Positions 7,083 to 33,472 of a stretch of 41,888 bases of DNA are shown in pieces. The stretch lies in the NCBI GenBank assembly GCA_035627955.1, contig DASPKU010000017.1, forward strand, positions 1 to 41,888, read 5' to 3'. The translations under genes were made by a program, and so were the position numbers. Source of the stretch: Phycisphaerales bacterium (lineage in GTDB: Bacteria > Planctomycetota > Phycisphaerae > Phycisphaerales > UBA1924). Position 1 is the first letter of the stretch, and each line of letters starts with the position of its first letter. The notes below the pieces were generated by a model, which made no database searches, had not been told where the DNA came from, and saw only the letters and a list, made by a program, of their open reading frames with translations.

Positions 7083-7097
7083 TTGGGTGGTGTCTTT

Positions 7098-7208
7098 GGG
7101 TACCCCTCCGCTCCGCGGCGGTCTTAAGGCGGTGTAGAGCGCGTGCAACGTGGCAACTCGCGCATTCTGGTGCAACACGAAGAGCCGCCGCGGAGCGGCG
7201 GGGTACCC
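7098..7208 (+). repeat. 24-bp inverted repeat pair with a 63-bp spacer (MITE/REP-like)
   Basis: The arms are 7098-7121 and 7185-7208. They are reverse complements with a single mismatch, and both outer ends carry the palindrome GGGTACCC. The spacer contains no gene. It lies between a terminator and the stop codon of the minus-strand crotonase gene. The sequence differs from the hairpin repeats around the transposase gene at 22034. Confidence 0.75.
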
Positions 7209-7220
7209 AGGACGCAGCGA

Positions 7221-10760: not shown

Positions 10761-10790
10761 CTTGCGATTCACTTCAGGAGGTAGGGCGGC

Positions 10791-13280
10791 TCAGCAGGTC
10801 CCGCCGCCCAGGACGCGGAAGAACGCCTCGATGTCCTGGTCGGTGCCGATGTCGCCGTCGCCGTTGAAGTCGGCGCCGCCCTGCCAGCACGTCGGGCAGC
10901 AGCTGCCGCCCAGGCACGCGAAGAACGCTTCGATGTCTTGATCGGTGCCGAAGTCGCCGTCGCCGTTGAAGTCCTGGTTGCCGCACCCGCCGGTCTGGGT
11001 GCACATGCGGACCACGACTTCGACATCGTCCACCGCCGCTTCCACCAGCGAGCCCGAGCCGGTGTCGCCGGCGCTGAAGCGCAGCTTCATCTGGTTGGTG
11101 AGGGCGATGGCGGGGAAGTTGCTCAGGTCGATGGTCCCCTGCAGCCAGCCGCCGTTGTTGTTCGAAGCTGGACCGATGGTCTGGACAGTGGTCCAGTTGC
11201 CGCCGTTGTCGCTGGACACACTCACGAGGAACGTGTCCGCGGCGGGGGCGGAACCCTGGGTATTGCTGTACCAGCGCCAGTAGTTGATGACCATCTCCAG
11301 CGCGCCCGCGGCGTTGATGGTCGGGCTGATGAGGTGCGTCGTGCCGCCGTCGACGTCGGCCGCGCCGATCTGCCCGCCGACGGCACCCTGGCCCGTCACC
11401 CAGCAGAGTGTGCCGTTGGCGGTGTGGTCATCTTCTGGCTGCGCCGTGGTGCCGACCGGGTCGACCCTCACCCACGCGCCGCTGGTGAGCGCGGCGTCGT
11501 TCTGCACCGTCCACCCCGTGTTGGACTCGAAGTTGTCGCTGAACAGCACGCTCGGGGCCTGAGCCACCAGCGCTGAGTACACGGCGGTGGGGGCGTTAGC
11601 GGGCGAGCGCACCACCGCCCCGCCGCTGCCAGTCGCCTGGAGGTAGAACTGGGGGTTGTTGCCGCAGCTGAACGCCGGCAGCGTGGCGGTGTAGCTGTTG
11701 CCGCCGTTGAAGGTGAGCGGCACGCTGGTGTACGCGCCGCTGGTGCTGGAGCGGTAGAACAGCGCGGTTGAAGCGACGTTCTGATTCCCCGCCGTGACCT
11801 GCACCGGGAAGCTGACCGGAGCGCCCGGCTCGACCACAGAAGGGGCCCCGTTGGGCAGCACGATGTCGACCGTGGTGTCCGCGACCTGCAGCGACAGGCT
11901 GTACAGCTGCACCTCGTTGACGCCCGACGTGCTGAACACGCGCACGTAGTAGTCGCCCGCGGCGGGCAGGACCACGCTCTGCAGAGCCTCCGCCACACCG
12001 GCCTGCGACGCCACGCCCGTGGCCAGCACGGTCGTGCCGTTGGCCGAGAGCACCTGGAGGTCCAGATCGCCCGAGGCGAGGCTGTCGGTCACGTCGGTGT
12101 TGCAGCATGAGCCGCTCTGACCGGCGCAGTTCTGCACGTCGTCGGCGTACGTGGTGCCGATGGGGCTGGCCGTGACGTTCAGCAGACGCCGGCCGGTCAC
12201 GCTGATCTTGTACCAGTCCGCGTCGTTGTTGATGTTCAGGCTGGCGAGGGAGGACAGCGGGATGGCCGGCGCGGGCACCGCGCCGATCGTCGTTGTCGTG
12301 CCCGCGACGAGCGTGCCCAGCTGCGTCGCTGTCGCGGCGCTGTTGTTTGGCTCGAACTTGTCGCCGTAGTGCTGCTGGGCGTTGCGGATGTCGTCGTGGC
12401 GCGGCCCGTCGTAGGCCACACTGATGAACGGCTCCATGAGCTTGGTCTGGGCGATGGGGCACACGTGGGCCTGACCCATCCCGTGCCCGTGCTCGTGGGC
12501 GAGAACGTTGCGCAGGCGCAGCGAGTTGCTGGAGGTGGTGTTGAAGAAGGAATCGCCCGTGTCGACGACCATGTCGCCGTTCTGCGGAAAGAAGTTGTAC
12601 GCCAGGACACCGGAGGCGCCGTCGATGAAGTGCCCGCCCATCCGCAGGTCGCCGCGGACGCCCACCTGCCCCGCCGAGGTTCCCAGGCCGACGCCGTCGT
12701 CGTTGGGCTCGTGCACGTACGTCACGCCGCACAGCTGGCCCCACCGCGCGAAGATCGCGTGGTAGTGCGCCTGCCAGGTGGCGTCGTTCGCGCCGTAAAT
12801 CCCGCGCATGAACGCGAAGAGGTCGCTGGGCGCGGCGGGCTCGCCGTTGAACCCCTGGATGGGCGTGCCGTCGGGCACAAAGCTGTAGGTGAGGGTGATC
12901 GGTGAACCGACCGCGGTCGCCCCGGTCATTGCGGTGGCGCCCCAGCGGGCGGACTGGTTGAACCGCGGCTCCAGGCCGAACATCACCTGGTTGAACACCA
13001 TCATCGTGTTGTGGTCGGTGGCGTCGTCGAAGCAGGTGGAGAGCCCGGCCAGCAACTCGGGGCGCGCGGCGATGTTGATCAGCATCCGCTGGTGCACGGG
13101 GGCGAGCTTCGCCCACGACTCGGCCTGAACGAAGCGGCCGATAAGGGCCGGCATTGCCAGCCCGCGATCAGCGTTCTCGGACGATCCGCACGAGCCGCAG
13201 GGGCCGCACAACGCCGCGGCCAGACCCGCGACACCCACCAGACCCGGGATCGCCAGGTCACGAATCCACCGATGCACCAT
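10791..13280 (-). CDS. Secreted matrixin-like metalloprotease with PPC domain and double EF-hand C-terminus
   Basis: The ATG at 13280 follows GGAGG by 5 bases and gives 829 residues; an upstream in-frame extension was rejected. An N-terminal hydrophobic segment (about residues 8-24) precedes a CGPCGSCGSS stretch. The protease domain has the metzincin motif His262-Glu-x-x-His266-x-x-Gly-x-x-His272 (HEHGHGMGQAH), followed by a Met-containing turn (LMEPFIS). A PPC domain follows (DWYKISVTGRRLLNVTASP ... GDYYVRVFSTSG). Then come an Ig-like part and a lectin/jelly-roll-like part beginning FSDNFESNTGW. The last 60 residues are two DFNGDGDxGTDQDIEAFF loops separated by CLGGSCCPTC, ending GGGTC. It is probably a cell-surface or released protease. 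Confidence 0.85.
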   Translation of the reverse strand: MVHRWIRDLAIPGLVGVAGLAAALCGPCGSCGSSENADRGLAMPALIGRFVQAESWAKLAPVHQRMLINIAARPELLAGLSTCFDDATDHNTMMVFNQVMFGLEPRFNQSARWGATAMTGATAVGSPITLTYSFVPDGTPIQGFNGEPAAPSDLFAFMRGIYGANDATWQAHYHAIFARWGQLCGVTYVHEPNDDGVGLGTSAGQVGVRGDLRMGGHFIDGASGVLAYNFFPQNGDMVVDTGDSFFNTTSSNSLRLRNVLAHEHGHGMGQAHVCPIAQTKLMEPFISVAYDGPRHDDIRNAQQHYGDKFEPNNSAATATQLGTLVAGTTTTIGAVPAPAIPLSSLASLNINNDADWYKISVTGRRLLNVTASPIGTTYADDVQNCAGQSGSCCNTDVTDSLASGDLDLQVLSANGTTVLATGVASQAGVAEALQSVVLPAAGDYYVRVFSTSGVNEVQLYSLSLQVADTTVDIVLPNGAPSVVEPGAPVSFPVQVTAGNQNVASTALFYRSSTSGAYTSVPLTFNGGNSYTATLPAFSCGNNPQFYLQATGSGGAVVRSPANAPTAVYSALVAQAPSVLFSDNFESNTGWTVQNDAALTSGAWVRVDPVGTTAQPEDDHTANGTLCWVTGQGAVGGQIGAADVDGGTTHLISPTINAAGALEMVINYWRWYSNTQGSAPAADTFLVSVSSDNGGNWTTVQTIGPASNNNGGWLQGTIDLSNFPAIALTNQMKLRFSAGDTGSGSLVEAAVDDVEVVVRMCTQTGGCGNQDFNGDGDFGTDQDIEAFFACLGGSCCPTCWQGGADFNGDGDIGTDQDIEAFFRVLGGGTC

Positions 13281-13432
13281 GAAAGCCTCCGTTCCAGGCC
13301 CCGACGAAACGACGGAATGAGATGAAGCCCACGGGCGCAGAAACCCCTGCCCGCGGCGACGGAAGACTAACACATCGGCCAAGGGATGGAAGGGGATTTT
13401 ACCGCCCGGTTCTTGGGCTCCACCCGGACATT

Positions 13433-13477
13433 CCCCGGCCACTGCGCGCGGGGTCGGGTAACGGAGCGTGGCCGGGG
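13433..13477. other. Intergenic stem-loop
   Basis: A 10-bp perfect inverted repeat, CCCCGGCCAC (13433-13442) with GTGGCCGGGG (13468-13477), has a 25-base loop. It lies in the 231-base gap between two minus-strand genes. No T-run follows, so it may be a processing or attenuation structure rather than a terminator. Confidence 0.5.
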
Positions 13478-13511
13478 AGCGCGGCCAACCCCTTCTTGAC
13501 CGTCGGTGTTC

Positions 13512-15509
13512 TTAGCAGGCCCCGCCGCCGATCACCCGGAAGAACGACTCAATGTCCTGGTCCGTCGCGGTGTCGCCGTCGGCGTTGAAGTCGGCGCTGC
13601 CGCACGTTGGGCAGCAGTTGCCACCGATGCAGGCGAAAAACGCCTCGATGTCCTGATCGGTCGCGGTGTCGCCGTCGTTGTTGAAGTCGGCCGAGCAGGT
13701 TGCGGTGATGGGCATCACCCTCGGCTGCTGCGCCGAGAGGTCGATGCCGTTGATGGCCGCGTCGCCGAACACGATCGGCACGTACCCCATGGCCGCGAAG
13801 TAGCGGGCCCGCTCGACAATCTCCAGCGGCTCGGGCCAGCGGCCCAGCTCGTCGTGCAGGTGGTGCTTCTGGATGGAACCCCACAGCTCGTGCCCGGGGA
13901 CCAGCAGCTGCGCGAGGTAGTGCGGCGTGACGATCCGGTACGTCGACGCCCAGTTCGGGCGCGTGGCGTAGGTGAACCCCGGCGCGAGCGTCGCGAGGAT
14001 GTCGCACGGCATCGGCTCGATCAGGAACCGCACGCCCGGGTACCACTGCTGCAGCTGCCGCAGCCAGTGGTAGCTCTGCCACACCGGCAGGTGCGCGAAC
14101 GCGTCGAGCCCGACGACGCGCGTGTTGGCGATCTGCACCGCCCCATCCACCTCCTGACGCGCGAGCGCGACGTGCGTGGGGTTCGCAGGGTCGATCACCA
14201 GGGGCGGGTTCGCGGCGGTGGGCGGCCAGCTTGTCATCACCTGCGTGGAGTTGCCCCACCATAGGCCCAGCTCACGCCCGCTGCTGTTGGTGATGTCCGC
14301 GAGCACCGCCGGTCCCGCGCCCGCCGATTGCTGTGCACTCCACCGAGAAGTGAACTGGAAGGGGAAGTTGTAATCGCTGGGAGTCGTCGGGAAGAGGCCC
14401 GTGGGGGTCCACATCATGAAGCGCGCCCAGCCGCGCGCGTGCTGGAACAGCAGCTCCTGGTGCCAGCGGTCCCACCCCTCGGGGTATGGCCGCCCGCCCC
14501 CGCCGGAGAACTCAACGAACCCGTAGGGGTTGCTCGCGGAGATCAGGTCAGCCTGAGTGGTCGTGCAGCCGAGCACCGGGCGCGGGTCGGCGGTGTAGCG
14601 CACGCCGCCGTACCGCGCCGTGAAGTACTCGCGGTAGGGCTGGAAGAGCCTGAGCCACTGCTGCGGCGCGTTGGCCGTGTCGTAGGCGTTCTCGGGGATG
14701 GTCTGCGTGCCCCCCGGGCTCCAGGCCCCGCCCGTGGGCGTGCTCGTGCGCATCGCGCGGACGCTAACCACGTAGGTGCGCGATTCGCCCGCGGGCACCA
14801 GCCCCTCGGTCAGCGCCGGGTCAGCGTTGGTGAAGTCGCGGGCCGCGAGGATCATCTGGACTTCCCACGTGCGCGGCTCGCCCTCCGCGGGCGGGAACAC
14901 GTGGATGCCCAGCGCAACTCGGTGGGCGTACTGGTTCGGACCCGCTGCGCCGCCGGGCGCAGCTGGGTCGACGAGCGGGTACTGCAGCGACACCCCCAGC
15001 GCGTACTCGCCCGCGTGCAGGAACGCGACGGGGGCAAAGAGCGACCCGGGGTACTTCGCCTCCTGGTCCATGTTCCAGCCGCTGTCGAGCGGGTTCGTCG
15101 TGATGTCCTGCGCCTGCCCGGTCAGGAAGAAGTCGCGCGTGCGCACCCGCCCGCGCTGATCCACCGGCAGGCCGAAGGTGATGCCGGGAACGTAGAGCGG
15201 GCCGGGACGGCGGGCGGTTGTGCCCTGCGTGTTGTCGAACGTGAACGCGAGATCGATGCCGTCGGCGTGCGCGGCATCTCCGCCCGAGGGCAGCCACGCG
15301 ACTGTCGGCTCGATGGTGCCCGCGTCGCCGTTGGCGGGCGTGTACACGCGGTGACGGATGATGGGGTCGCCCGAAATCACCGTGCGTCCCGTGTCGTTGT
15401 CGACGACGCTGATCTTGCCGGAGGTGTAGCTCACAGTAAAGTCCGCCGAGGCATGCGCGGCGGCGAGCAGGAGGGCGAGCGCTGCGGCGCCCGCGGTGCG
15501 AAGGACCAT
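13512..15509 (-). CDS. Large secreted protein of unknown function with double EF-hand C-terminus
   Basis: The ATG at 15509 (AGGGAG upstream) gives 665 residues with a signal peptide ending AHASA. The first part is beta-rich (about residues 23-250). The middle and C-terminal region looks like an alpha/beta barrel of the kind found in glycoside hydrolases: RARGWARFMMWTPTG-like strands, a VVGLDAFAHLPVWQSYHWL segment, and LIEPMPCDI with a candidate acidic residue at a strand end. I cannot assign a family, and the carbohydrate-active role is a guess. The last 58 residues repeat DFNxDGDTATDQDIEAFF twice, separated by CIGGNCCPTCGS, and end GGGAC, as in the next gene downstream. Confidence 0.72.
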   Translation of the reverse strand: MVLRTAGAAALALLLAAAHASADFTVSYTSGKISVVDNDTGRTVISGDPIIRHRVYTPANGDAGTIEPTVAWLPSGGDAAHADGIDLAFTFDNTQGTTARRPGPLYVPGITFGLPVDQRGRVRTRDFFLTGQAQDITTNPLDSGWNMDQEAKYPGSLFAPVAFLHAGEYALGVSLQYPLVDPAAPGGAAGPNQYAHRVALGIHVFPPAEGEPRTWEVQMILAARDFTNADPALTEGLVPAGESRTYVVSVRAMRTSTPTGGAWSPGGTQTIPENAYDTANAPQQWLRLFQPYREYFTARYGGVRYTADPRPVLGCTTTQADLISASNPYGFVEFSGGGGRPYPEGWDRWHQELLFQHARGWARFMMWTPTGLFPTTPSDYNFPFQFTSRWSAQQSAGAGPAVLADITNSSGRELGLWWGNSTQVMTSWPPTAANPPLVIDPANPTHVALARQEVDGAVQIANTRVVGLDAFAHLPVWQSYHWLRQLQQWYPGVRFLIEPMPCDILATLAPGFTYATRPNWASTYRIVTPHYLAQLLVPGHELWGSIQKHHLHDELGRWPEPLEIVERARYFAAMGYVPIVFGDAAINGIDLSAQQPRVMPITATCSADFNNDGDTATDQDIEAFFACIGGNCCPTCGSADFNADGDTATDQDIESFFRVIGGGAC

Positions 15510-15709: not shown

Positions 15710-16240
15710 ATGGAGTTCTCACTGCCGCACACGATCGCGGTGCTGGAGCGCACGCCGCGGGTGCTCGACACCATGCTCCGCGGCCTGCCGCCGGAGCTGA
15801 CGCACGCCAACTACGGCCCCGGCACGTGGAGCGCGTACAACGTCGTCGGCCACCTGATCGTGGGCGAAAAGGACGACTGGATCCCGCGGGCGCGACGGAT
15901 CCTGGAGCACGGCGTCTCGCGCGCGTTCGACCCATTCCCGCATGATGCCACCGTGCACGCGGCGAGTGGCCGCTCACTTGAATCGCTGCTCGACGAGTTC
16001 ACCCGGCTGCGCGCCGAGAGCCTGTCGGCGCTGCGGGCCATGAACCTCGGGGAGCGCGAGCTGGCCTTGCGCGGCCGGCACCCCGCCTTTGGTGACGTGA
16101 CCCTCGCCCAGCTGCTCGCCACCTGGAGCGTGCACGATGTCCACCACGTGCGGCAGGCGTGTATGGCCATCGCGTACCAGTCGCGCGAGCTGGTGGGGCC
16201 GTGGCGGGCGTACCTCAACACCCTGCCACAGGAAGCCTGA
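15710..16240 (+). CDS. DinB-like four-helix metalloprotein
   Basis: A 176-residue protein whose ATG follows AAGGGA. The four-helix DinB/YfiT fold is indicated by the metal-binding pattern: His in NVVGHLIVGEKDDW after the second helix, and HDVHHVRQ near the C-terminus. Members are often thiol-dependent transferases or stress-induced proteins; the substrate is unknown. The last residues and the stop (QEA-stop) lie inside a hairpin repeat that also ends lpxC, so the native C-terminus may have been replaced. Confidence 0.82.
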   Translation: MEFSLPHTIAVLERTPRVLDTMLRGLPPELTHANYGPGTWSAYNVVGHLIVGEKDDWIPRARRILEHGVSRAFDPFPHDATVHAASGRSLESLLDEFTRLRAESLSALRAMNLGERELALRGRHPAFGDVTLAQLLATWSVHDVHHVRQACMAIAYQSRELVGPWRAYLNTLPQEA

Positions 16241-16274
16241 GCGTCAGCGAGGGCATCGCCGCGCTTCGCGCGAT
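16228..16274 (+). repeat. REP-like hairpin repeat, copy A (overlaps stop codon)
   Basis: The sequence starts ACAGGAAGCCTGAGCGTC and is identical over 43 bases to copy C beside lpxC. Its hairpin ATCGCCGCG-CTT-CGCGCGAT is one base short of perfect. The in-frame TGA inside GCCTGA is the stop codon of the DinB-like gene. Confidence 0.85.
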
Positions 16275-16277
16275 CCG

Positions 16278-16300: not shown

Positions 16301-16306
16301 TGCTCC

Positions 16307-18880
16307 CTAACGGTGGCGGTTCCTATGCGGGCCGGAGTGGAGCGCGCCGCCCTCACGAAACTCCACCCAGCTCGCCCCATCCGTGGCCGTGGTGTACCAC
16401 GTGCGGTTCACGCGCACGCCGTCCCAGCGGGGGTCGTCGGCCCGCAGGGCGCCCGTCGATTGCAGCACCACCTCGGGGTTGAGGTGCCACGCGAAGTCGA
16501 TCGCGGCCGGCCGGGCCGAGCCGTGGTGGGGGAGCTCCAGCACGCGCGGCATCAGCCCAGGGTGAGTGCTGCGGAGCGCGGCGATCGCCTCATCCTGCAC
16601 ATCGCCGGTGAGCAGCGCGGCATGCGGGTCCGCCGGTGTCGAGACGAGCGCAACCAGCGAGTGGTTGTTATCCAGCGGCCAGTCGGCCGCAGGCGGCGGG
16701 GACAGAAAGGTCAGTGTGGTCTGGCCGATGCTCGTTGTGTCGCCCTGCTGCAACGCACGGAGTGGCACGCCGCGGGCCTTGAGTTCGCGCGTTAGTTCAG
16801 CAACCGCTCCCGCCGGCTGCTCCGCCGCCTGCGCGATGAACCGCGCCGGCACCAGCACCTCGCGCACGCCCAGAGGGTGCAGCACCTCCGCCAGCCCGGC
16901 AAAGTGGTCCAGGTCCGGGTGCGTGACGATGACCCTCGGCGTCCTCCACGCGCCCAAGGCCCGCACCGCGCCCACCAGCGGCGGGGTCGTCCCGTTCCCC
17001 GGCATCGGCCCGCAGTCCCACAGCACCGCATCATCACCGCTGCGCAGCAGGTAGCACGAGCCATTACCGACATCGAGGATGTCGATGCGCAGGGCGACAT
17101 CGCGCCGGAGGCCTCCCGGGTTGGCCCACTGGAGCGCCAACCACGCGCCGACGAGCGCGCCCGCGCCCCACGCCCGCCACTCGCGCCAGCGCCAGTACTT
17201 CAGCCACGCCACGATGACCAGCGTCGCGCCCGCGCACCACAGGCCCGACACCACCGGCACGCAGAGCGCGCTGAACGGCACGGCGTCGAAGAGGTTCACA
17301 CCCGCCACGGACCACTGGCACAGGTGCGCCAGCACGTGCCCCGCCCAGTCCGCCGCGGGCAGGATGAACACGCCCGCGAGCAGCGCCAAGTACCCCGCCC
17401 ACAGCACCAGCACGATGAGCGGCGTGATCAGGATGGTCGCGCCGATCGCTAGCGGGCTGATGAGCCCGAACCGGTGCATGATGAGCGGCAGCGACACGGC
17501 CCAGCACATCACGGCGGCGGAGAAGCTCTGCGTCAGCTTGTCACGCGTCCACGTGAAGAACGGGATCTCCTTCCGCACGATGCCCTGGATCGGCACGCCG
17601 AACATGCGGGCGTGCACGGTGGGGCCCAGCCAGAAGAGACAAGCCGTGAGGCCGAAGCTGAGCTGGAAGCCGGGGTTCCATAGGTCCAGCGGGCGCCACA
17701 GCAGCAGGCCCACGGCGATCCACGTCAGCAGCGTGAGGCGGTCGTAGCGGCGCCCGCTGGCTTCCGCCGCCATCACGCCCAGCACCATGGCCGCGGATCG
17801 CAGGATCGGCGAGCTCGCGGGCACGATCAGCACGTACAGCAGCACGATGACCGCCACGAGTGCGGGCTCGAGCCACCCACGATCGCCGCTCAGCCGCAGC
17901 ACGAAGAGCGCGAGCAGGGCCATGACAGACAGGTGGAAGCCGGAAATGGACAGCACGTGCGCGAGCCCCTGGCGGGCGAACGCGTCGCGCACCTCGCGCT
18001 GCGAGGGGTCGTAGTCGCCCAGCACAAGCCCGAGCAGCAGGGCCCGCGAGCGCTCACCCTCCTCGCCCTCGAGGTTGCCGGCGGCGCGAGTGAGGAGGTG
18101 TCTGGCGCGGTCCTCGAGCGCCGCGCGGGCGGCGAGCCAGCGGGCACTGACGCTGCCGAGAGCGCTGCCGTCACGTTCGATGGGCTGCAGCAGGGTCGCG
18201 CTGCTCAGCGTCAGCGAGCCCGCGAAGCCCACCTGCGCGGCGTACTCGCGCAGGTCGTCCTGCCCAGGGTTGCTCGGCGGACCGATGGGCTCGAACCAGC
18301 CGGTGAGGCGGATGCGGTCGCCGGCGCGCGGGAGAGCGATCGCACCGGCGCCGGGCGGCGGAGTGCGCGCCCACAGCTTGCCGTGCACCGGCAGGCCGCC
18401 CTTCTCCGTGACGATGGTGTCGACATCCACGTCAAGCCGCACCCGCGGCTGCGATTGGAACGGCAGCGTGCCGCGCTGCGGCTTCACCTCCCGCGGCGTG
18501 CGGAGGACGGTGCCCTCGAGCGTAACCAGCGTCCGCGTATCCGCCAGGAGCACGCCCAGGTCACGGACCGTGTGCTCGAAGATACGGGCGTGCATCCAGC
18601 CCGCGCTGCCGCAGATGATGGCGAGCGCCAGGGCAGCGCGGCAGGCCCAGGCTTTGGTCGCAATGGCCGCGGCGCACGCGCCCAGCGCCAGCGCGAACCA
18701 CGCCGACGACATCCACGGCAACGCCCGCCCCAGCGCCAGCCCGACCGCCACCAGCACGAACGCGGTCAGCACCCGCCGGCGCGTCCGCGCGAGCTGCTGG
18801 GCCAGCCCGTCCCCCGCGGTCGACGCTCCAGGCACGGCGACCGGCGCGGAATGGGGCGTGGATGGAGAAACACCCTGCAC
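16307..18880 (-). CDS. comEC: ComEC/Rec2 DNA-uptake channel
   Basis: An 857-residue membrane protein with the three ComEC parts. First come N-terminal helices and an OB-like DUF4131 region (residues about 1-230). Next is the Competence domain with many membrane segments (about 270-560; GLAHVLSISGFHLSVMALL is characteristic). Last is a C-terminal metallo-beta-lactamase domain, DVGNGSCYLL then VIVTHPDLDHFAGL (HxDxDH) and ELPHHGS. ComEC carries single-stranded DNA across the inner membrane during transformation. The start codon is GTG at 18880. The prepilin-like gene upstream may be relevant, but no other competence genes are visible. Confidence 0.93.
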   Translation of the reverse strand: MQGVSPSTPHSAPVAVPGASTAGDGLAQQLARTRRRVLTAFVLVAVGLALGRALPWMSSAWFALALGACAAAIATKAWACRAALALAIICGSAGWMHARIFEHTVRDLGVLLADTRTLVTLEGTVLRTPREVKPQRGTLPFQSQPRVRLDVDVDTIVTEKGGLPVHGKLWARTPPPGAGAIALPRAGDRIRLTGWFEPIGPPSNPGQDDLREYAAQVGFAGSLTLSSATLLQPIERDGSALGSVSARWLAARAALEDRARHLLTRAAGNLEGEEGERSRALLLGLVLGDYDPSQREVRDAFARQGLAHVLSISGFHLSVMALLALFVLRLSGDRGWLEPALVAVIVLLYVLIVPASSPILRSAAMVLGVMAAEASGRRYDRLTLLTWIAVGLLLWRPLDLWNPGFQLSFGLTACLFWLGPTVHARMFGVPIQGIVRKEIPFFTWTRDKLTQSFSAAVMCWAVSLPLIMHRFGLISPLAIGATILITPLIVLVLWAGYLALLAGVFILPAADWAGHVLAHLCQWSVAGVNLFDAVPFSALCVPVVSGLWCAGATLVIVAWLKYWRWREWRAWGAGALVGAWLALQWANPGGLRRDVALRIDILDVGNGSCYLLRSGDDAVLWDCGPMPGNGTTPPLVGAVRALGAWRTPRVIVTHPDLDHFAGLAEVLHPLGVREVLVPARFIAQAAEQPAGAVAELTRELKARGVPLRALQQGDTTSIGQTTLTFLSPPPAADWPLDNNHSLVALVSTPADPHAALLTGDVQDEAIAALRSTHPGLMPRVLELPHHGSARPAAIDFAWHLNPEVVLQSTGALRADDPRWDGVRVNRTWYTTATDGASWVEFREGGALHSGPHRNRHR

Positions 18881-20287: not shown

Positions 20288-21460
20288 GTGAGTTCACTGG
20301 CCACACCATCGGGCTACAGCGGGCAGGGGTCGGCAGTTGCGGCCGCGGCGGAAGCGATCCGCTCCGGCGGCCTCGCCATCATCCCCACCGAGACCGTCTA
20401 CGGCTTGGCATGCGACGCCCGCAACGCGGACGCCGTGGCGCGACTGCACGCGCTCGTGGTGCCGCCCATCGACCGCCCGCCGCTGCCGCCCGCGAGCAGC
20501 TGGCACGCCCCAAGCACCCAGCGCGTGCTGGAGGTGCTCAACATCACGCACCCCCTGCACCTGCGCCTCATCGAGAAGCTCACCCCCGGCCCGGTTCGCC
20601 TGCAGGTGCAGAAGACGCCCGAGGAGATCACCGCGATCCTCGCGCAGCTGGGTGTCAAGCCCGGCGTGATCGACCGCAACAACGAGGTCTGGGTCCGCAT
20701 CCCCGACCACCCCTTGGGCGTCGCGGTCATCGAGCGGGCGGGCGGCGTGATCATCGCCGACCGCATCAGCGCCTTTGGCCTGGGCGACGGCAAGGAGATC
20801 CCGGAGGACATCCAGGGCACGATCGAGCGCATGGGCATCGCGGCCGTGGTCGATGATGGCCCCACGCGCCTGGGCAAGCCCTCGACGGGCATCCACCTCG
20901 GGCGCGACGGCACGTACGAGGTCATCCCCGGCGGGCTCTTCGACGAGCGCTACATCCGCAAGAAGGTGGAGCGGCTGGTGCTGTTCGTGTGCACCGGCAA
21001 TACCTGCCGCAGCCCCATGGCCGAGGCGATCGCCCGGGACGTGCTCGCGAACCTCAAGAGCCCGATCCCCACGCGCGTGACCTCCGCGGGGGTGTCGGCC
21101 CTGCCCGGCGAGCCAATGACCGCCGAGGCACGTGAGGCACTGGCCGAGATGAACGTCGATCACGGCCACCACCGCGCCCGCGAGCTCGCCCGTGACCTCC
21201 TGAACGAGGCCGAAGTCATCTTCGCGATGACGCGCTCGCACATGCAGGCGGTGCTGGCGGTGGCGCCGCAAGCCGCGGCCAAGGTGCTCGTGCTTGACCC
21301 CACCGGCCAGGACGTCAAGGACCCCATCGGCGGCACGCAGGATGAATATCGTTCCACCGCCCGCAAGCTAAGGACGCTCGTCGAGCGCCGCCTGCGGGAG
21401 CTCGACGCCGCCATCCAGGCCCCCACGACCCCCACGTCTACTGAAAGGACTTCGCCATGA
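20288..21460 (+). CDS. Fusion: Sua5/YrdC-like domain + YwlE-type protein-arginine phosphatase
   Basis: A GTG at 20288 gives 390 residues. Residues about 15-230 are Sua5/YrdC-like (threonylcarbamoyl-AMP synthase family): PTETVYGLACDA is intact, but the KxRP...PL motif is replaced by a Pro-rich stretch, and the SANxSG motif is ADRISAFG. The GKPST element remains. From residue 231 there is a low-molecular-weight phosphatase, with the P-loop Cys235-TGNT-C-Arg241-SP and the later KDPIGG acid loop. Thr239 in this loop is the residue that gives Bacillus YwlE its phosphoarginine preference, so an arginine phosphatase is predicted. It is coupled by ATGA to rpiB, recalling the ywlC-ywlE-ywlF order. The Sua5 half may be inactive for t6A. 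Confidence 0.85.
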   Translation: MSSLATPSGYSGQGSAVAAAAEAIRSGGLAIIPTETVYGLACDARNADAVARLHALVVPPIDRPPLPPASSWHAPSTQRVLEVLNITHPLHLRLIEKLTPGPVRLQVQKTPEEITAILAQLGVKPGVIDRNNEVWVRIPDHPLGVAVIERAGGVIIADRISAFGLGDGKEIPEDIQGTIERMGIAAVVDDGPTRLGKPSTGIHLGRDGTYEVIPGGLFDERYIRKKVERLVLFVCTGNTCRSPMAEAIARDVLANLKSPIPTRVTSAGVSALPGEPMTAEAREALAEMNVDHGHHRARELARDLLNEAEVIFAMTRSHMQAVLAVAPQAAAKVLVLDPTGQDVKDPIGGTQDEYRSTARKLRTLVERRLRELDAAIQAPTTPTSTERTSP

Positions 21461-21921
21461 AGATCGCGCTGAGCGCCGACCACCGTGGGATCGCGGGGAT
21501 CAAGAGCCTCGCCGACCAGCTCAAGCGCCAGGGCCACGAGCCCGAACTGCTGGGCGACTGCAGCGGCGCTCCCGCCGATTACCCCGAGCGGGCGTACATG
21601 GTCGGGCAGGCGGTGGCGAAGGGCCAGGCCGACCTGGGCATCCTCATCTGCGGCACCGGCATCGGCATGTCGATCGCGGCCAACAAGGTCAAGGGCGTGC
21701 GGGCCGCGGTGGTGCACGACGAGCTCACCGCCCAGCTATCGCGCTCGCACAACAACGCCAACGTGCTCTGCCTCTCCGCCGACCTGCTGGGCCAGCGGCT
21801 GATCGAGAAGATCGCCGAGGTGTGGATCAACACGCAGTTCGAGGGCGGCCGCCACTCGCGCCGCATCCGCAAGATCGCGGCGATGGAGAACGGCGTGGAC
21901 CCGGCCACCGTGCAGGAGTGA
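21457..21921 (+). CDS. rpiB: Ribose 5-phosphate isomerase B
   Basis: A 154-residue RpiB/LacA/LacB-family isomerase. It interconverts ribose 5-phosphate and ribulose 5-phosphate in the pentose phosphate pathway. The N-terminal SADHRGIAGIK and the LICGTGIGMSIAANK segment with the catalytic Cys are intact, and RSHNNANVLCLSA completes the active site. The length is normal for the family. Its ATG overlaps the stop of the phosphatase fusion by four bases (ATGA), so the two are translationally coupled. A hairpin repeat follows 16 bases after the stop. Confidence 0.95.
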   Translation: MKIALSADHRGIAGIKSLADQLKRQGHEPELLGDCSGAPADYPERAYMVGQAVAKGQADLGILICGTGIGMSIAANKVKGVRAAVVHDELTAQLSRSHNNANVLCLSADLLGQRLIEKIAEVWINTQFEGGRHSRRIRKIAAMENGVDPATVQE

Positions 21922-21936
21922 GGTCGGTGCGAAACA

Positions 21937-21985
21937 AGAAGCCCGACCGTCAGGAAGGGCATGGCCGCGACTGAGCGGCCATACG
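21937..21985 (+). repeat. REP-like hairpin repeat, copy D (upstream of transposase)
   Basis: It begins AAGCCCGACCGTCAGGAAGG. It contains the perfect palindrome ATGGCCGC-GACTGA-GCGGCCAT (21961-21982), shared exactly with copy B downstream of the transposase. A compensatory GCCC/GGGC pair forms a second small stem at 21941-21960. Confidence 0.85.
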
Positions 21986-22033
21986 TTGGGCACCGGAAAT
22001 CGAAAGGCACCCCAGCGCGGTACGCTCGCCCGG

Positions 22034-22507
22034 ATGTACAACGAGCCGCTCGCCTACTTCATCACGTTCCGCACCTACGGCACGTGGCTGCACGGCGATG
22101 AGCGCGGGTCGGTGCACGAGTCGCGCAATAAGTTCGGAACTCCCTTCATCGAGCCGGACGCCGAGTGGCTGAAGTACGATGAGAAACACCTGAAGCACGA
22201 TCCCGTCGCTCTCTCGGATGCGCAACGCGCATGCGTTGACGCGGCGCTCCGCGGTGTCTGCGAGCACCACCAATGGATACTTCACGCCCTCAATGTTCGT
22301 ACCAATCACGTCCATTGCGTGGTGAAGGCGAACCGCGAGAAGGACTTCGTCATGAACTCACTGAAGGCCTGGGGAACGCGCCGACTGAACGAAGCCGGGC
22401 TGAACCAACGGGGCACAAAGGTGTGGTCGCGCCACGGAAGCACTCAGTACATCTTCACCTACGAGAAGCTCCGAGAGAAGATCGACTACGTGCTCAATCA
22501 GCAGTAG
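22034..22507 (+). CDS. REP-associated tyrosine transposase (Y1/HUH, IS200-like)
   Basis: The ATG at 22034 gives 157 residues. The HUH motif is His92-Val-His94 (RTNHVHCVV), and candidate nucleophile tyrosines lie near the C-terminus (Tyr139, Tyr143, Tyr152). The start YFITFRTYGTWLHGDERGSVH matches the IS200-like transposase superfamily, in a solitary form without terminal insertion-sequence ends. Such RAYT proteins bind and cut REP hairpins as single strands and are usually domesticated single-copy genes. Here hairpin repeats lie 48 bases upstream (copy D) and 8 bases downstream (copies B and C). The gene looks intact. Its catalytic competence is inferred. Confidence 0.88.
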   Translation: MYNEPLAYFITFRTYGTWLHGDERGSVHESRNKFGTPFIEPDAEWLKYDEKHLKHDPVALSDAQRACVDAALRGVCEHHQWILHALNVRTNHVHCVVKANREKDFVMNSLKAWGTRRLNEAGLNQRGTKVWSRHGSTQYIFTYEKLREKIDYVLNQQ

Positions 22508-22515
22508 AGGAGCCG

Positions 22516-22567
22516 ACAGGAGGCCTGAGCGTCAGCGAGGGCATGGCCGCGACTGAGCGGCCATACG
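22516..22567 (+). repeat. REP-like hairpin repeat, copy B
   Basis: It begins ACAGGAGGCCTGAGCGTC and contains ATGGCCGC-GACTGA-GCGGCCAT (22543-22564). Its TGA lies in the same frame as the transposase gene, seven codons beyond the real stop. It faces copy C in inverted orientation, forming a BIME-like pair. Confidence 0.87.
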
Positions 22568-22615
22568 CTCGGCGCTGGTGTGGACAGACACTTGCGGTCA
22601 ACGGGTGTCGCTCGT

Positions 22616-22663
22616 ATCGCCGCGAAGCGCGGCGATGCCCTCGCTGACGCTCAGGCTTCCTGT
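22616..22663 (-). repeat. REP-like hairpin repeat, copy C (overlaps lpxC stop codon)
   Basis: On the minus strand it is identical over 43 bases to copy A at 16228. Its hairpin ATCGCCGCG-CTT-CGCGGCGAT is a perfect 9-bp stem. The TGA in GCCTGA is the lpxC stop, and the preceding QEA codons are also repeat-encoded. Confidence 0.87.
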
Positions 22664-23517
22664 ACCTGTTCCAGTACCTTCCGGCAGAACTCGCGCACCA
22701 ACGCATGCCCCGAGCGCGTCGCGGTGACGTCCGCCGCCAGCGGACGCCCGAGCAACGCCAGGTCCCCGATCAGATCGAGCAGCTTGTGCTTCGCGGGCTC
22801 ATTGCGCATCCGCCATTGGTTGTCGATCGGCTGGCCGTCGTCGCCCACCACCACCATCTCGCGCGCCGAGAACTTCGTGAACAGCCCCGCGCGGGCCGCG
22901 GCCTCCGCCTCCGCGCGAAGCGAGAACGTGCGGGCCGGCGCGATGTCACGGGCGTACTCCGCCGGGTCACCGCTCCAAACCGCCGCCTGCGCCTGGATCG
23001 GTGAAGACGGCCCGTAATCGAGCGCGTAGGTGAACGACCAGCCGCCGGGCCGCGGCTCAGCTCGCACCACCCCGCCACCTCCATCCTGCACCTCCACCGG
23101 CCCACGCAGCACGATCGGGTCCTGCTCCCGCTCGAACTCAACCACCAGCGGCAGGAGCACCTCCACAAACGGCAGCGCCGATCCATCCAGGATCGGCACC
23201 TCCGGCCCCTGCACCTCCACCACCGCGTCGGTGATCCCCAGCCCCGCGAGGGCCGACATTACGTGCTCGATCGTGCCGACGGACCAGTCACCCGCGCCGA
23301 TGGACGTGTTACGGATGGGCAGCCCCGCCGGCAACCCCCGTGGCCTCCAGTCCACGCACCGCGACACATGAGCCTGAACAGGCCCGCGCCCCGGCGAGGT
23401 GAACAGAATCCCATTCGCGACCACCGAGGGCCGGATCGTGACCGCGCACTCCTCGCCGCTGAACAACCCCGGCCCTCGCAAGGTGGGTGTTTCACGGCTG
23501 ATAGTCCGGCGGTGCAT
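22651..23517 (-). CDS. lpxC: UDP-3-O-acyl-N-acetylglucosamine deacetylase
   Basis: A 288-residue LpxC, the zinc amidase that commits UDP-3-O-acyl-GlcNAc to lipid A synthesis. It has the zinc-ligand His in GTIEHVMSALAGLG, the substrate-binding DGSALPF, the ARTFSL loop, and the second zinc site KHKLLDLIGDLALLG with His and Asp (Lys replaces the usual Arg before His). The C-terminus is short: it ends in a repeat-derived QEA-stop, with no FabZ fusion of the kind known in some planctomycetes and Bacteroidetes. It is the last gene of bamA-skp-lpxD-lpxC. Confidence 0.95.
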   Translation of the reverse strand: MHRRTISRETPTLRGPGLFSGEECAVTIRPSVVANGILFTSPGRGPVQAHVSRCVDWRPRGLPAGLPIRNTSIGAGDWSVGTIEHVMSALAGLGITDAVVEVQGPEVPILDGSALPFVEVLLPLVVEFEREQDPIVLRGPVEVQDGGGGVVRAEPRPGGWSFTYALDYGPSSPIQAQAAVWSGDPAEYARDIAPARTFSLRAEAEAAARAGLFTKFSAREMVVVGDDGQPIDNQWRMRNEPAKHKLLDLIGDLALLGRPLAADVTATRSGHALVREFCRKVLEQVQEA

Positions 23518-31863: not shown

Positions 31864-33472
31864 ATGAACTCCCTGCTCTCCAGCGCGATCATTCTGTCCA
31901 CCCTCGCCGGCACCACCCTTGCCCAGACCGTCGTCAGCGGGCTGGAGCACACCGCCACCGGCGGCGCGGTGCTCGGTACACCCAACGGCCGCCGCCTCCC
32001 CGTGCACAACCTCGGCTCCTCCGGGCAGGACGGTGTCGAGCTCCGCCTGCACTCGTCCATGGGCGGCGGCACCGGTGTCGAGATCGCCCCGGTCCTCAGC
32101 GTGGCCGGCGGCGGTGTCCGCATCCGCCACAAGGGCTGGGACGGCCTTATCTACGGCAACCACCGCATGATCTCGAGCGGCAACGGCACGGGCACGTTCC
32201 ACTGGGACTTCTCCAGCCTCGGCGCCTCCTCCATCAACATCAAGGTGCTGTCCGAGGACGGGACTATCACCGAGGACTACGACGTGAGCGGCCCCATCGC
32301 GGCGAAGCCGTGGGTCCCCAACTTCACCTGCCCCAACGGCGGCACGCCCGTGCTCATCTACAAGTGGATGAGCGCGTGCAACGGCTGCCCGCCGTTCCTG
32401 TGGATGGGCTGGGCCTGCATGACGAGCACCGGCGAGACGGGCACCTACACCTACCAGGGCCGCATGATGATCACGCCCACCAGCGGCCCGGGCTCGCCGC
32501 CGATCTCGTCCAACATCGACTCCATGCTGGTCAGCGCCATCGGCGTCCCCAGCCTGACCCTCACCAGCGCCACCATCGAGACCCTCGGCGTCTCGTCGTT
32601 CGGCCTGGGCCAGGCGCACATCGGCGAAGTGTGCGACGACAACGACGGCGATGGCTCGTGCGATGAGCGTCGGCTCCCGGTGCACAACCTCGGGAGCAGC
32701 GGACAGGACGGCGTGTCGCTCGACCTCGGCCCCGGCGCCGATGGCGTGGAAGCTCGAGCTGGCGCGGGGCAACTGCTGCCGCGGGCACGTCACCCTGATG
32801 AAGCTCTACGACGACGAGGGCTCCGCGGCCCGCATCAGCCTCACGCAGCAAGACCCCACCGCCGACGGCTACTTCGCCGACACCTTCAGCGCCGACTTCA
32901 CCGCCTACGGCTCACCCGGCTACGTGATCACGTGCTTTGATCCCAGCGGCGGCGTCATCGGCGAGCCGCAGGCGATCCTCATCGGCGGCTCCCAGCCCAC
33001 GTGGCACCACTCCTGCCCGCCCGGCGCCACCGCCAAGTACATCTGGGACGCCGGTCTCCAGCAGTGGGTCTTCTTCGGCTGCAACACCATCTCGACCGAG
33101 CGCATCCTCTTCCCCAACGGCCTCATGTTCGACAACGTCGACCACTTCACCGTGCAGCCGCTCGCCCCGGCCGCGCCCACCGCGGGCGGCAAGATCCGCC
33201 ACGTCGTGATCACCAAGAATGGCACCGAGATGGAGCTCAAGCGCGTCCGCAGGCGCCCCGACATCACCGGACCCGACTGCGGCGACAGCGACTTCAACGG
33301 CGACGGCGACATCGGCACCGACGCCGACATCGAGGCCTTCTTCGCCTGCCTGGGCGGCACCTGCTGCTCCAGCTGCTACGAGGGAGGCGCGGACTTCAAC
33401 GCCGACGGCGACGTGGGCACCGACGCCGACATCGAGAGCTTCTTCCGCGTGCTCGGCGGTGGCCAGTGCTGA
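31864..33472 (+). pseudogene. Secreted protein with double EF-hand C-terminus, interrupted by a frameshift
   Basis: An ATG-started frame (MNSLLSSAIILSTLAGTTLAQ, a signal peptide) runs from 31864. The downstream homologous part continues in the next frame to the stop at 33472. The switch lies near 32735-32748, after SGQDGVSLDLGPGADG and before AWKLELARGNCC, so one base has been gained or two lost relative to a single reading frame. Left alone, the first frame would read on to 32940. The joined protein would have about 535 residues. It contains two domains that share the identical 16-residue segment RRLPVHNLGSSGQDGV, encoded by differing codons. The C-terminus is the same double calcium-loop module as in two other genes, ending GGGQC. 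Sequencing error, a recent mutation or a programmed shift are all possible. Confidence 0.75.

Follow-up and report, generated by a model that had tools for sequence, protein, structure and literature searches.

Among described systems, the closest to the one reported here are the class 3 TnpA-Y1 transposases, which bear the signature Y----Q and occur mainly in Planctomycetes, Acidobacteria and Proteobacteria. In the sections of Quentin et al. 2018 (PMC6006769) that deal with them, they are proteins of about 155 amino acids with a conserved N-terminal part and with atypical, weak flanking hairpins that occur in many copies per genome; a 5' CnGA foot and copy numbers are given for these repeats. 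The same sections pose an open question: how and why are REP transposases kept, when REPtrons seemingly do not transpose as a unit?

The locus considered here lies in a window of 41,888 nucleotides (the whole stretch of DNA that was analysed), one contig of a genome of 4.26 Mb in 23 contigs. It resembles class 3, as those sections of PMC6006769 present it, in combining Y----Q with HUH, in its length of 157 amino acids and in its 64 strict repeat heads genome-wide, and it goes beyond their description in having a covarying hairpin 1, a hairpin 2, REPINs, several head subtypes per genome, and relatives nested in host genes. With the class 2 RAYT/REP systems, as outlined in the relevant part of PMC8266576, it shares a single-copy Y1 gene among dispersed REPs and REPINs and a short foot before an imperfect palindrome; unlike them, it is without a GTAG foot, has Y----Q and not Y---NP, scores below the NCBIfam cut-off and possesses an extra, second hairpin. 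The TIRYTs and GTAG/CGTC REPs, compared by their description in the corresponding part of Di Nocera et al. 2013 (PMC3733652), are similar in that RAYT-like genes are framed by non-GTAG repeats, and R. baltica is named there as rich in TIR-flanked RAYTs; a word search of Nunvar et al. 2010 (PMC2817692) for planctomycete names gave no match. The Y1 fold and a hairpin beside a guide-like tetranucleotide recall the IS200/IS605 elements (IS608, ISDra2), from which the locus differs in its single-copy gene, its many repeats and the absence of any sign of a mobile gene unit. Judged from its sequence, the feature is most probably a class 3 TnpA-Y1 REPtron, that is, a single-copy HUH/Y1 enzyme with REPs of its own type.

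Results

The window encodes a Y1 transposase of class 3 type

The first-pass annotation had placed a Y1 transposase gene at 22034-22507, and this was confirmed by a match of the open reading frame to PF01797 (29.1 bits, cut-off 23; Table 1). The genome contains three Y1 paralogues (identity 100, 45 and 40%), each of them single-copy, and a fourth match reached only E 0.448; the other two paralogues are also flanked by their own repeat variants. The AlphaFold2 model of the window protein, made with 74 sequences, has a pLDDT of 91.3. All 30 of the PDB chains found by Foldseek at E ≤ 1e-3 are titled transposase, including those of ISDra2, IS608 and, at rank 3, the E. coli RAYT (4er8); searching the PDB by sequence produced a single match at E 0.87 and no relative. 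H92, H94 and W131 are invariant in the 74 sequences and Y152 and Q157 are conserved in at least 90%, while in the N-terminal part G16 and G21 are invariant and Y8, T11, Y15, L19, H20, G25 and N32 reach at least 90%. The signature is Y----Q; the window copy reads YVLNQQ and so has a Q at +4 too, the family-conserved Q being the one at +5.

The NCBIfam models are not satisfied: REP_Tyr_transpos (NF047646) gives 31.8 bits against a cut-off of 80 and the IS200 model (NF033573) gives 25.6 bits against 55. A YARGA foot precedes 36 of 43 heads with up to three mismatches at the own-genome loci examined, and none of the 43 has a GT[AG]G foot, the seven others included. Foot, signature (not Y---NP) and NCBIfam score together rule out a canonical GTAG RAYT of class 2. 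By its signature, its length and its high-copy weak hairpins the protein fits class 3 as described in those sections of Quentin et al. 2018.

Table 1. Coordinates of the transposase gene, its neighbours and the repeats in the window
Feature	Position	Strand	Evidence
REP copy A, hairpin 2 imperfect	16230..16275	+	DNA fold z -0.61
Degenerate inverted partner of A, ACCGC-like head	16302..16325	-	sequence
RpiB-like isomerase, upstream neighbour	21457..21921	+	PF02502, 169 bits
REP copy D: foot AAGA, hairpin 1 21940-21960, hairpin 2 21961-21982	21936..21982	+	DNA fold, two hairpins, -14.7 kcal/mol, z -4.26
Y1 HUH transposase, 157 aa, class 3 type	22034..22507	+	PF01797; H92, H94, W131, Y152, Q157
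REP copy B: foot AGGA, hairpin 1 22522-22542, hairpin 2 22543-22564	22518..22564	+	DNA fold z -3.02
B-C REPIN, feet outward, strand self-folding	22518..22661	.	-61.6 kcal/mol as single-stranded DNA, z -9.30
REP copy C, B's inverted partner	22616..22661	-	DNA fold z -2.65
LpxC, downstream neighbour	22651..23517	-	PF03331, 216.8 bits

Repeats frame the gene

Three matches to the 19-nt head GCCTGAGCGTCAGCGAGGG with up to three mismatches occur in the window, against 0.02 expected. Folded as DNA, each of D, B and C forms two adjacent hairpins; A, which lies 5.7 kb from the transposase gene, does not. The hairpin ATGGCCGC-GACTGA-GCGGCCAT is present at 21961-21982 (D) and 22543-22564 (B), and C has a hairpin with 9-bp arms at 22616-22636 on the minus strand. 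Two hairpin subtypes had been proposed from these copies; the GACTGA form in B and D and the 9-bp-arm form in C stand, but A is an imperfect member, its 3' arm being one base short. D does lie upstream of the gene, although its distance to the ATG is 51 bases and not 48. The inverted pair seen downstream is well founded, since B and C are the arms of a 36-nt inverted repeat that is 94% complementary. A direct repeat of 63 nt (84% alike) relates D to B, and lpxC takes its final codons and its stop from the foot and head of C (window 22651-22663).

The GACTGA loop common to B and D had been taken to suggest direct recognition by the transposase. This was rejected: the genome has three exact copies of the D/B stem, of which D and B alone have the GACTGA loop, the third having GTCCTC. 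As D and B agree at 84% over a stretch of 63 nt, their common loop is no independent evidence of recognition.

Elsewhere in the window there is another inverted repeat at 7097-7209 (25-nt arms, 96% complementary, spacing 63 nt), together with repeated segments at 33290-33459 and 10790-13697 that read like DFNGDGDIGTDADIEAFF and may be dockerin-type calcium repeats.

The conserved part of the repeat is a weak, covarying hairpin

The repeat is about 47 nt long and consists of the foot, a conserved imperfect hairpin 1 and a strong hairpin 2. The hairpins described in the first-pass annotation correspond to the strong hairpin 2, which differs between copies in sequence and loop, whereas the conserved part is the weaker hairpin before it. 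Hairpin 1 has the form A(G/C)CC-Y-GA-SC-GTMA-GS-RA-GGG and contains a GA/GA internal loop and a GTMA loop; the stretch before its inner stem reads CCGA in D, CTGA in B and C, and GCGA in heads of the ACCGC type. GA facing GA would be compatible with tandem sheared G-A pairs.

Covariation was assessed in 82 heads from 288 loci that had been picked by foot, GA, GTNA and RA, with pairing ignored. The second inner pair of hairpin 1 is C-G in 57 heads and G-C in 22, and for the second outer pair the counts are 46 G-C and 30 C-G. Neither number of paired cells was reached in any of 300 shuffles, and two further pairs are almost invariant and so uninformative. The stems of hairpin 1 covary: kinship among the sequences weakens the counts, yet both pairs swap.

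The repeats are dispersed through the genome as outward-facing pairs

Strict heads number 64 (40 + 24) in the genome of the window, against 0 + 0 in a reversed-pattern control, and a looser pattern allowing three mismatches gave 72 + 53 against 12 + 13. From 100 of the latter 125 sites we kept 73: all 45 with at most two mismatches and 28 of the 55 with three, chosen by eye. Among these 73, every pair of inverted neighbours within 150 bp (13/13) has its feet outward; the starts of the paired copies lie 38 to 116 bp apart and the pairs are spread over six contigs. Two direct arrays are also present. Dispersed inverted pairs with outward feet are the REPIN arrangement. The heads at the 73 sites are of the types ACCC (23), ACCGC (23), NGCC (16) and GCCCC (10), with one other. 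The window gene is flanked by the NGCC type; the commonest types differ from it, so the window enzyme may not have spread most of the copies.

These counts bear on the proposal that the gene, with D as its left end and B as its right, is an IS200-like insertion sequence that moves as a whole 0.6-kb unit in the manner of IS608: the 63-nt direct repeats, the Y1 fold and the additional Q at +4, a class 1 signature, are in its favour, but with one gene copy to 64 strict heads, an IS200 score far below its cut-off, inverted pairs of the repeat elsewhere in the genome and the family-conserved Q at +5, we consider it very unlikely.

Repeat numbers go with class 3 genes

The interpretation of the locus as a class 3 REPtron was examined in related genomes. 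A strict head lies within 300 nt of the Y1 gene in 21/50 free-standing genes that score at least 195 bits (so that 29/50 have none at that distance), 10/17 genes nested in valS, 11/12 nested in alaS and 6/9 nested in methylase genes; the same is true of 2/25 genes at 150-195 bits and 0/23 below 150 bits. Near high-scoring class 3 genes the density of heads is 1.6 to 3.2 per kb, compared with 0.01 to 0.28 farther off at the same loci. In 101 relatives, the median head count is 1 for the 41 with class 3 and 0 for those without (p 0.004). Fourteen genomes of one Y1 subclade, which was taken from the tree after the head counts were known, have a median of 30.5 heads against 1 in the other 87 (p 1e-7). 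The association recurs in 253 further genomes of the class, with class 3 matches called at E ≤ 1e-25 and up to 12 candidates scored per genome: the median is 6.5 heads in the 70 with class 3 and 0 in the 183 without (p 9e-11).

The first-pass annotation had asked whether the repeats occur equally in relatives without the transposase. Their numbers go with class 3 in both sets of genomes, but there are exceptions: 10 of the 183 genomes without a class 3 match have at least 20 heads (31 to 424), and 10 of the 101 relatives, each with at least eight heads, fall outside the Y1 subclade. Conversely, fewer than three heads are present in 9 of the 36 genomes whose class 3 gene is high-scoring. A second search of 15 repeat-rich genomes with the A1 profile found no Y1 in nine at E ≤ 1e-6 and weak ones only in six. 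Genomes G187, G282, G141, G343, G310 and G075 have 77 to 424 strict heads with Y1 absent or weak. Gene loss, assembly gaps at the repeats or another enzyme could account for repeat-rich genomes that have no class 3 gene.

Such genomes are what one would predict if the repeats were host elements (terminators, or sites for gyrase or a nucleoid protein) and the transposase were there by chance or recognised something else, and the terminator-like position of copy C at the end of lpxC points the same way. The concentration of heads beside high-scoring class 3 genes, their absence beside all 23 low-scoring Y1 genes and the recurrence of the association in 253 further genomes argue against this, and we regard it as improbable. 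The RAYT/REP architecture ascribed to the locus at the outset is supported in so far as the locus is REPtron-like (64 heads against 0, outward-foot pairs, heads enriched beside class 3), although it is not that of a canonical GTAG RAYT.

Relatives of the enzyme are read in frame inside valyl-tRNA synthetase

Ten class 3 matches in relatives sit in open frames of 988 to 1529 amino acids, with the Y1 domain read in frame inside valyl-tRNA synthetase. The valS gene was retrieved from 98 of the 101 genomes and the loop was readable in 95: ten have a class 3 Y1 there, eleven a different RAYT and 74, among them the genome of the window, neither. By alignment, the insert falls between positions 363 and 376 in the Thermus ValRS sequence (1gax). 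The eleven RAYTs of the second class (L158, L154, L091, L103, L086, L079, L097, L111, L161, L132 and L085) occupy the same loop, have HVH in 11/11 and Y---NP in 10/11, and are adjoined by GGTGVPPV-like and RDARPT-like peptides. All three of the second-class frames that were tested pass the NCBIfam cut-offs of both valS and REP_Tyr_transpos; one of the eleven, G037, has a short valS frame that may be broken.

In 20 of the 21 genomes with a nested valS, the nested gene was the sole valS locus detected with a query of 455 N-terminal residues (E ≤ 1e-30); the remaining one, G090, has a second valS fragment. As G086 is assembled in one contig and G075 in two, misassembly is no general answer. A structure model of a ValS-Y1 protein was poor (mean pLDDT 58.6, 10 sequences) and backs no claim.

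The valS loop of the window's own genome (L130) is without a Y1 and holds a long tandem repeat, EAPARFVEAPARSAEAPTR, which is perhaps a scar. At L148 (G058) the Y1 domain nested in valS is itself interrupted, in frame, by a REP-like peptide, RAATVRERS.

Nested Y1 domains occur in other host proteins

We examined the best 80 of 163 confirmed loci, and 34 of these were nested: 14 in ValS, 11 in AlaS, 7 in DUF1156 methylases and 2 in type ISP/IIG enzymes; the search profile was built from nested copies, so this is not an unbiased rate. The 14 ValS hosts were identified by motif, three of them being tested by profile as well, and PF01411 is found in all 11 AlaS hosts, one locus having two Y1 domains. 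Two DUF1156 hosts were tested and their best match was PADLOC HmaB; the scores with the DUF1156 antiphage model are 143.5 and 174.6, below its cut-off of 1000. At four of the 34 loci (L202, L206, L209 and L220) the contig breaks off shortly beyond the Y1 domain, leaving the host visible on one side only.

Long frames were also read from the 87 of 298 class genomes with a Y1 match, and because the surveys share some contigs their nested counts are not additive. Further ValS hosts are found in G162, G237 and G260, and in G170 at another site; additional hosts are AlaS in G276 (by reading only), LeuS in G129, PurH in G319, G330 and G216, and an MmeI-like protein in G258. The Y1 domains of G260, G129, G258 and the PurH cases have profile scores of 92 to 105 bits and are thus more distant members. 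Hosts score above their cut-offs with the insert in place in the case of valS (901 vs 612), alaS (839 vs 457) and leuS (1027 vs 548); PurH passes NF002049 (553 to 595 vs 402) and falls below TIGR00355 (476 to 514 vs 528). In L177, L208, L195, L197, L304, L310 and L313 the Pfam Y1 model was not matched at 1e-5 and our own profile is the evidence. Peptides encoded by REPs, such as SRDREGAV and PLPHGRGS, serve as linkers.

An alanyl-tRNA synthetase frame of 1686 amino acids in G185 (L185 and L305) carries class 3 Y1 domains at two separate sites. At L253 (G059:C5) a class 3 Y1 is at the C-terminus of a cytidylyltransferase (PF02348), with a repeat-like linker between the two, and at L285 (G069:C2) a weak, short Y1-like stretch runs in frame into what may be an aminotransferase. 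A 697-aa frame at L192 gave no host family and was left out of the nested count. The long frames in G014, G002:C19, G041, G064:C54, G091 and G049 were dismissed, since they read as overlaps due to chance in G+C-rich DNA and not as fusions.

Nested copies keep their catalytic residues and do not track their hosts

A tree of Y1 domains was made with 113 of 136 sequences (score of at least 150, near full length). The 17 valS copies fall on one side of a branch with weak support (SH-aLRT 75), while nesting in alaS needs three changes and nesting in methylases six. All 38 nested copies that entered the tree retain HUH and W; Y is present in 37 (one sequence is cut off) and Q at +5 in 35. For nested pairs whose dS is finite, dN/dS lies between 0.09 and 0.26, though most dS values are close to saturation; in two pairs dS was not finite. 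Mantel correlations between nested Y1 and host distances were r 0.02 (16 valS) and r 0.11 (7 alaS), and r 0.01 for 17 valS with an improved host alignment, when 2357 of 5000 permutations were as high. Simple co-descent of guest and host is not supported by these values; for Y1 and ValS the lack of correlation points away from it and towards turnover, homing or noise.

The nested copies might be passive, insertions tolerated at permissive loops without gain for transposon or host. Several observations are compatible with this: the insert-free valS loop varies in length from 51 to 139 residues between DQWY and WCISRQ, the uncorrelated distances look as if inserts came and went, and in some pairs the Y1 domain is far more diverged than the host (51% vs 88% for L194/L200). 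Against it stand the retention of HUH, W and Y in 17/17 valS and 12/12 alaS copies, dN/dS values between 0.13 and 0.26 in those five valS pairs whose dS is finite, albeit near saturation, and the occupation of a single valS loop by two classes of RAYT. On balance we think passivity possible but somewhat doubtful.

Discussion

If the locus is a class 3 REPtron, the work of the window enzyme is likely to be the processing of single-stranded REPINs in trans. A REPIN made single-stranded during replication or repair would fold on itself, and the enzyme would bind hairpin 1 through its GA/GA internal loop and GTMA loop, reading the YARGA foot as a guide. Tyr152 would then cut beside the foot and the enzyme would rejoin the ends, so that REPINs, and not the transposase gene, would be copied or moved. 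Hairpin 2 may stabilise the folded strand or serve to mark the inner end. The sequences show that related class 3 enzymes persist in frame in essential genes with their REPs read as linkers, the window copy representing a free-standing form.

Inteins, homing endonucleases and the Rickettsia palindromic elements are examples of guest sequences that reside in frame in conserved genes. The present case is unlike all of these in that the guest is an HUH transposase with its own REPs as linkers, and Pfam scans of the nested frames detected no intein domain. Searches among the open papers of PubMed Central listed no report of class 3 residence inside essential genes.

We see about an even chance that nesting is a way of life in the Planctomycetota: class 3 Y1 enzymes, and a second RAYT class in the same valS loop, would live in frame inside ValS, AlaS, LeuS, PurH and DNA methylases, with REPs as protein linkers, the valS-loop lineage may recolonise its loop by homing, and the window REPtron would be a free-standing form. 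With guest and host both intact, the transposase could be lost only by precise excision, and nesting in genes that are indispensable to the cell may in this way help retention. The nested state may serve retention, may perform a function for the host or may be baggage that the host tolerates.

The candidate recognition features of the repeat, namely the foot, the GA/GA internal loop and the GTMA loop, are open to testing in vitro, and the nested forms are natural fusions of a tRNA synthetase with a DNA-cutting domain. A class of enzymes so often encoded within an essential protein suggests a direct and testable answer to the question of how REP transposases are retained, one that resembles the retention of inteins.
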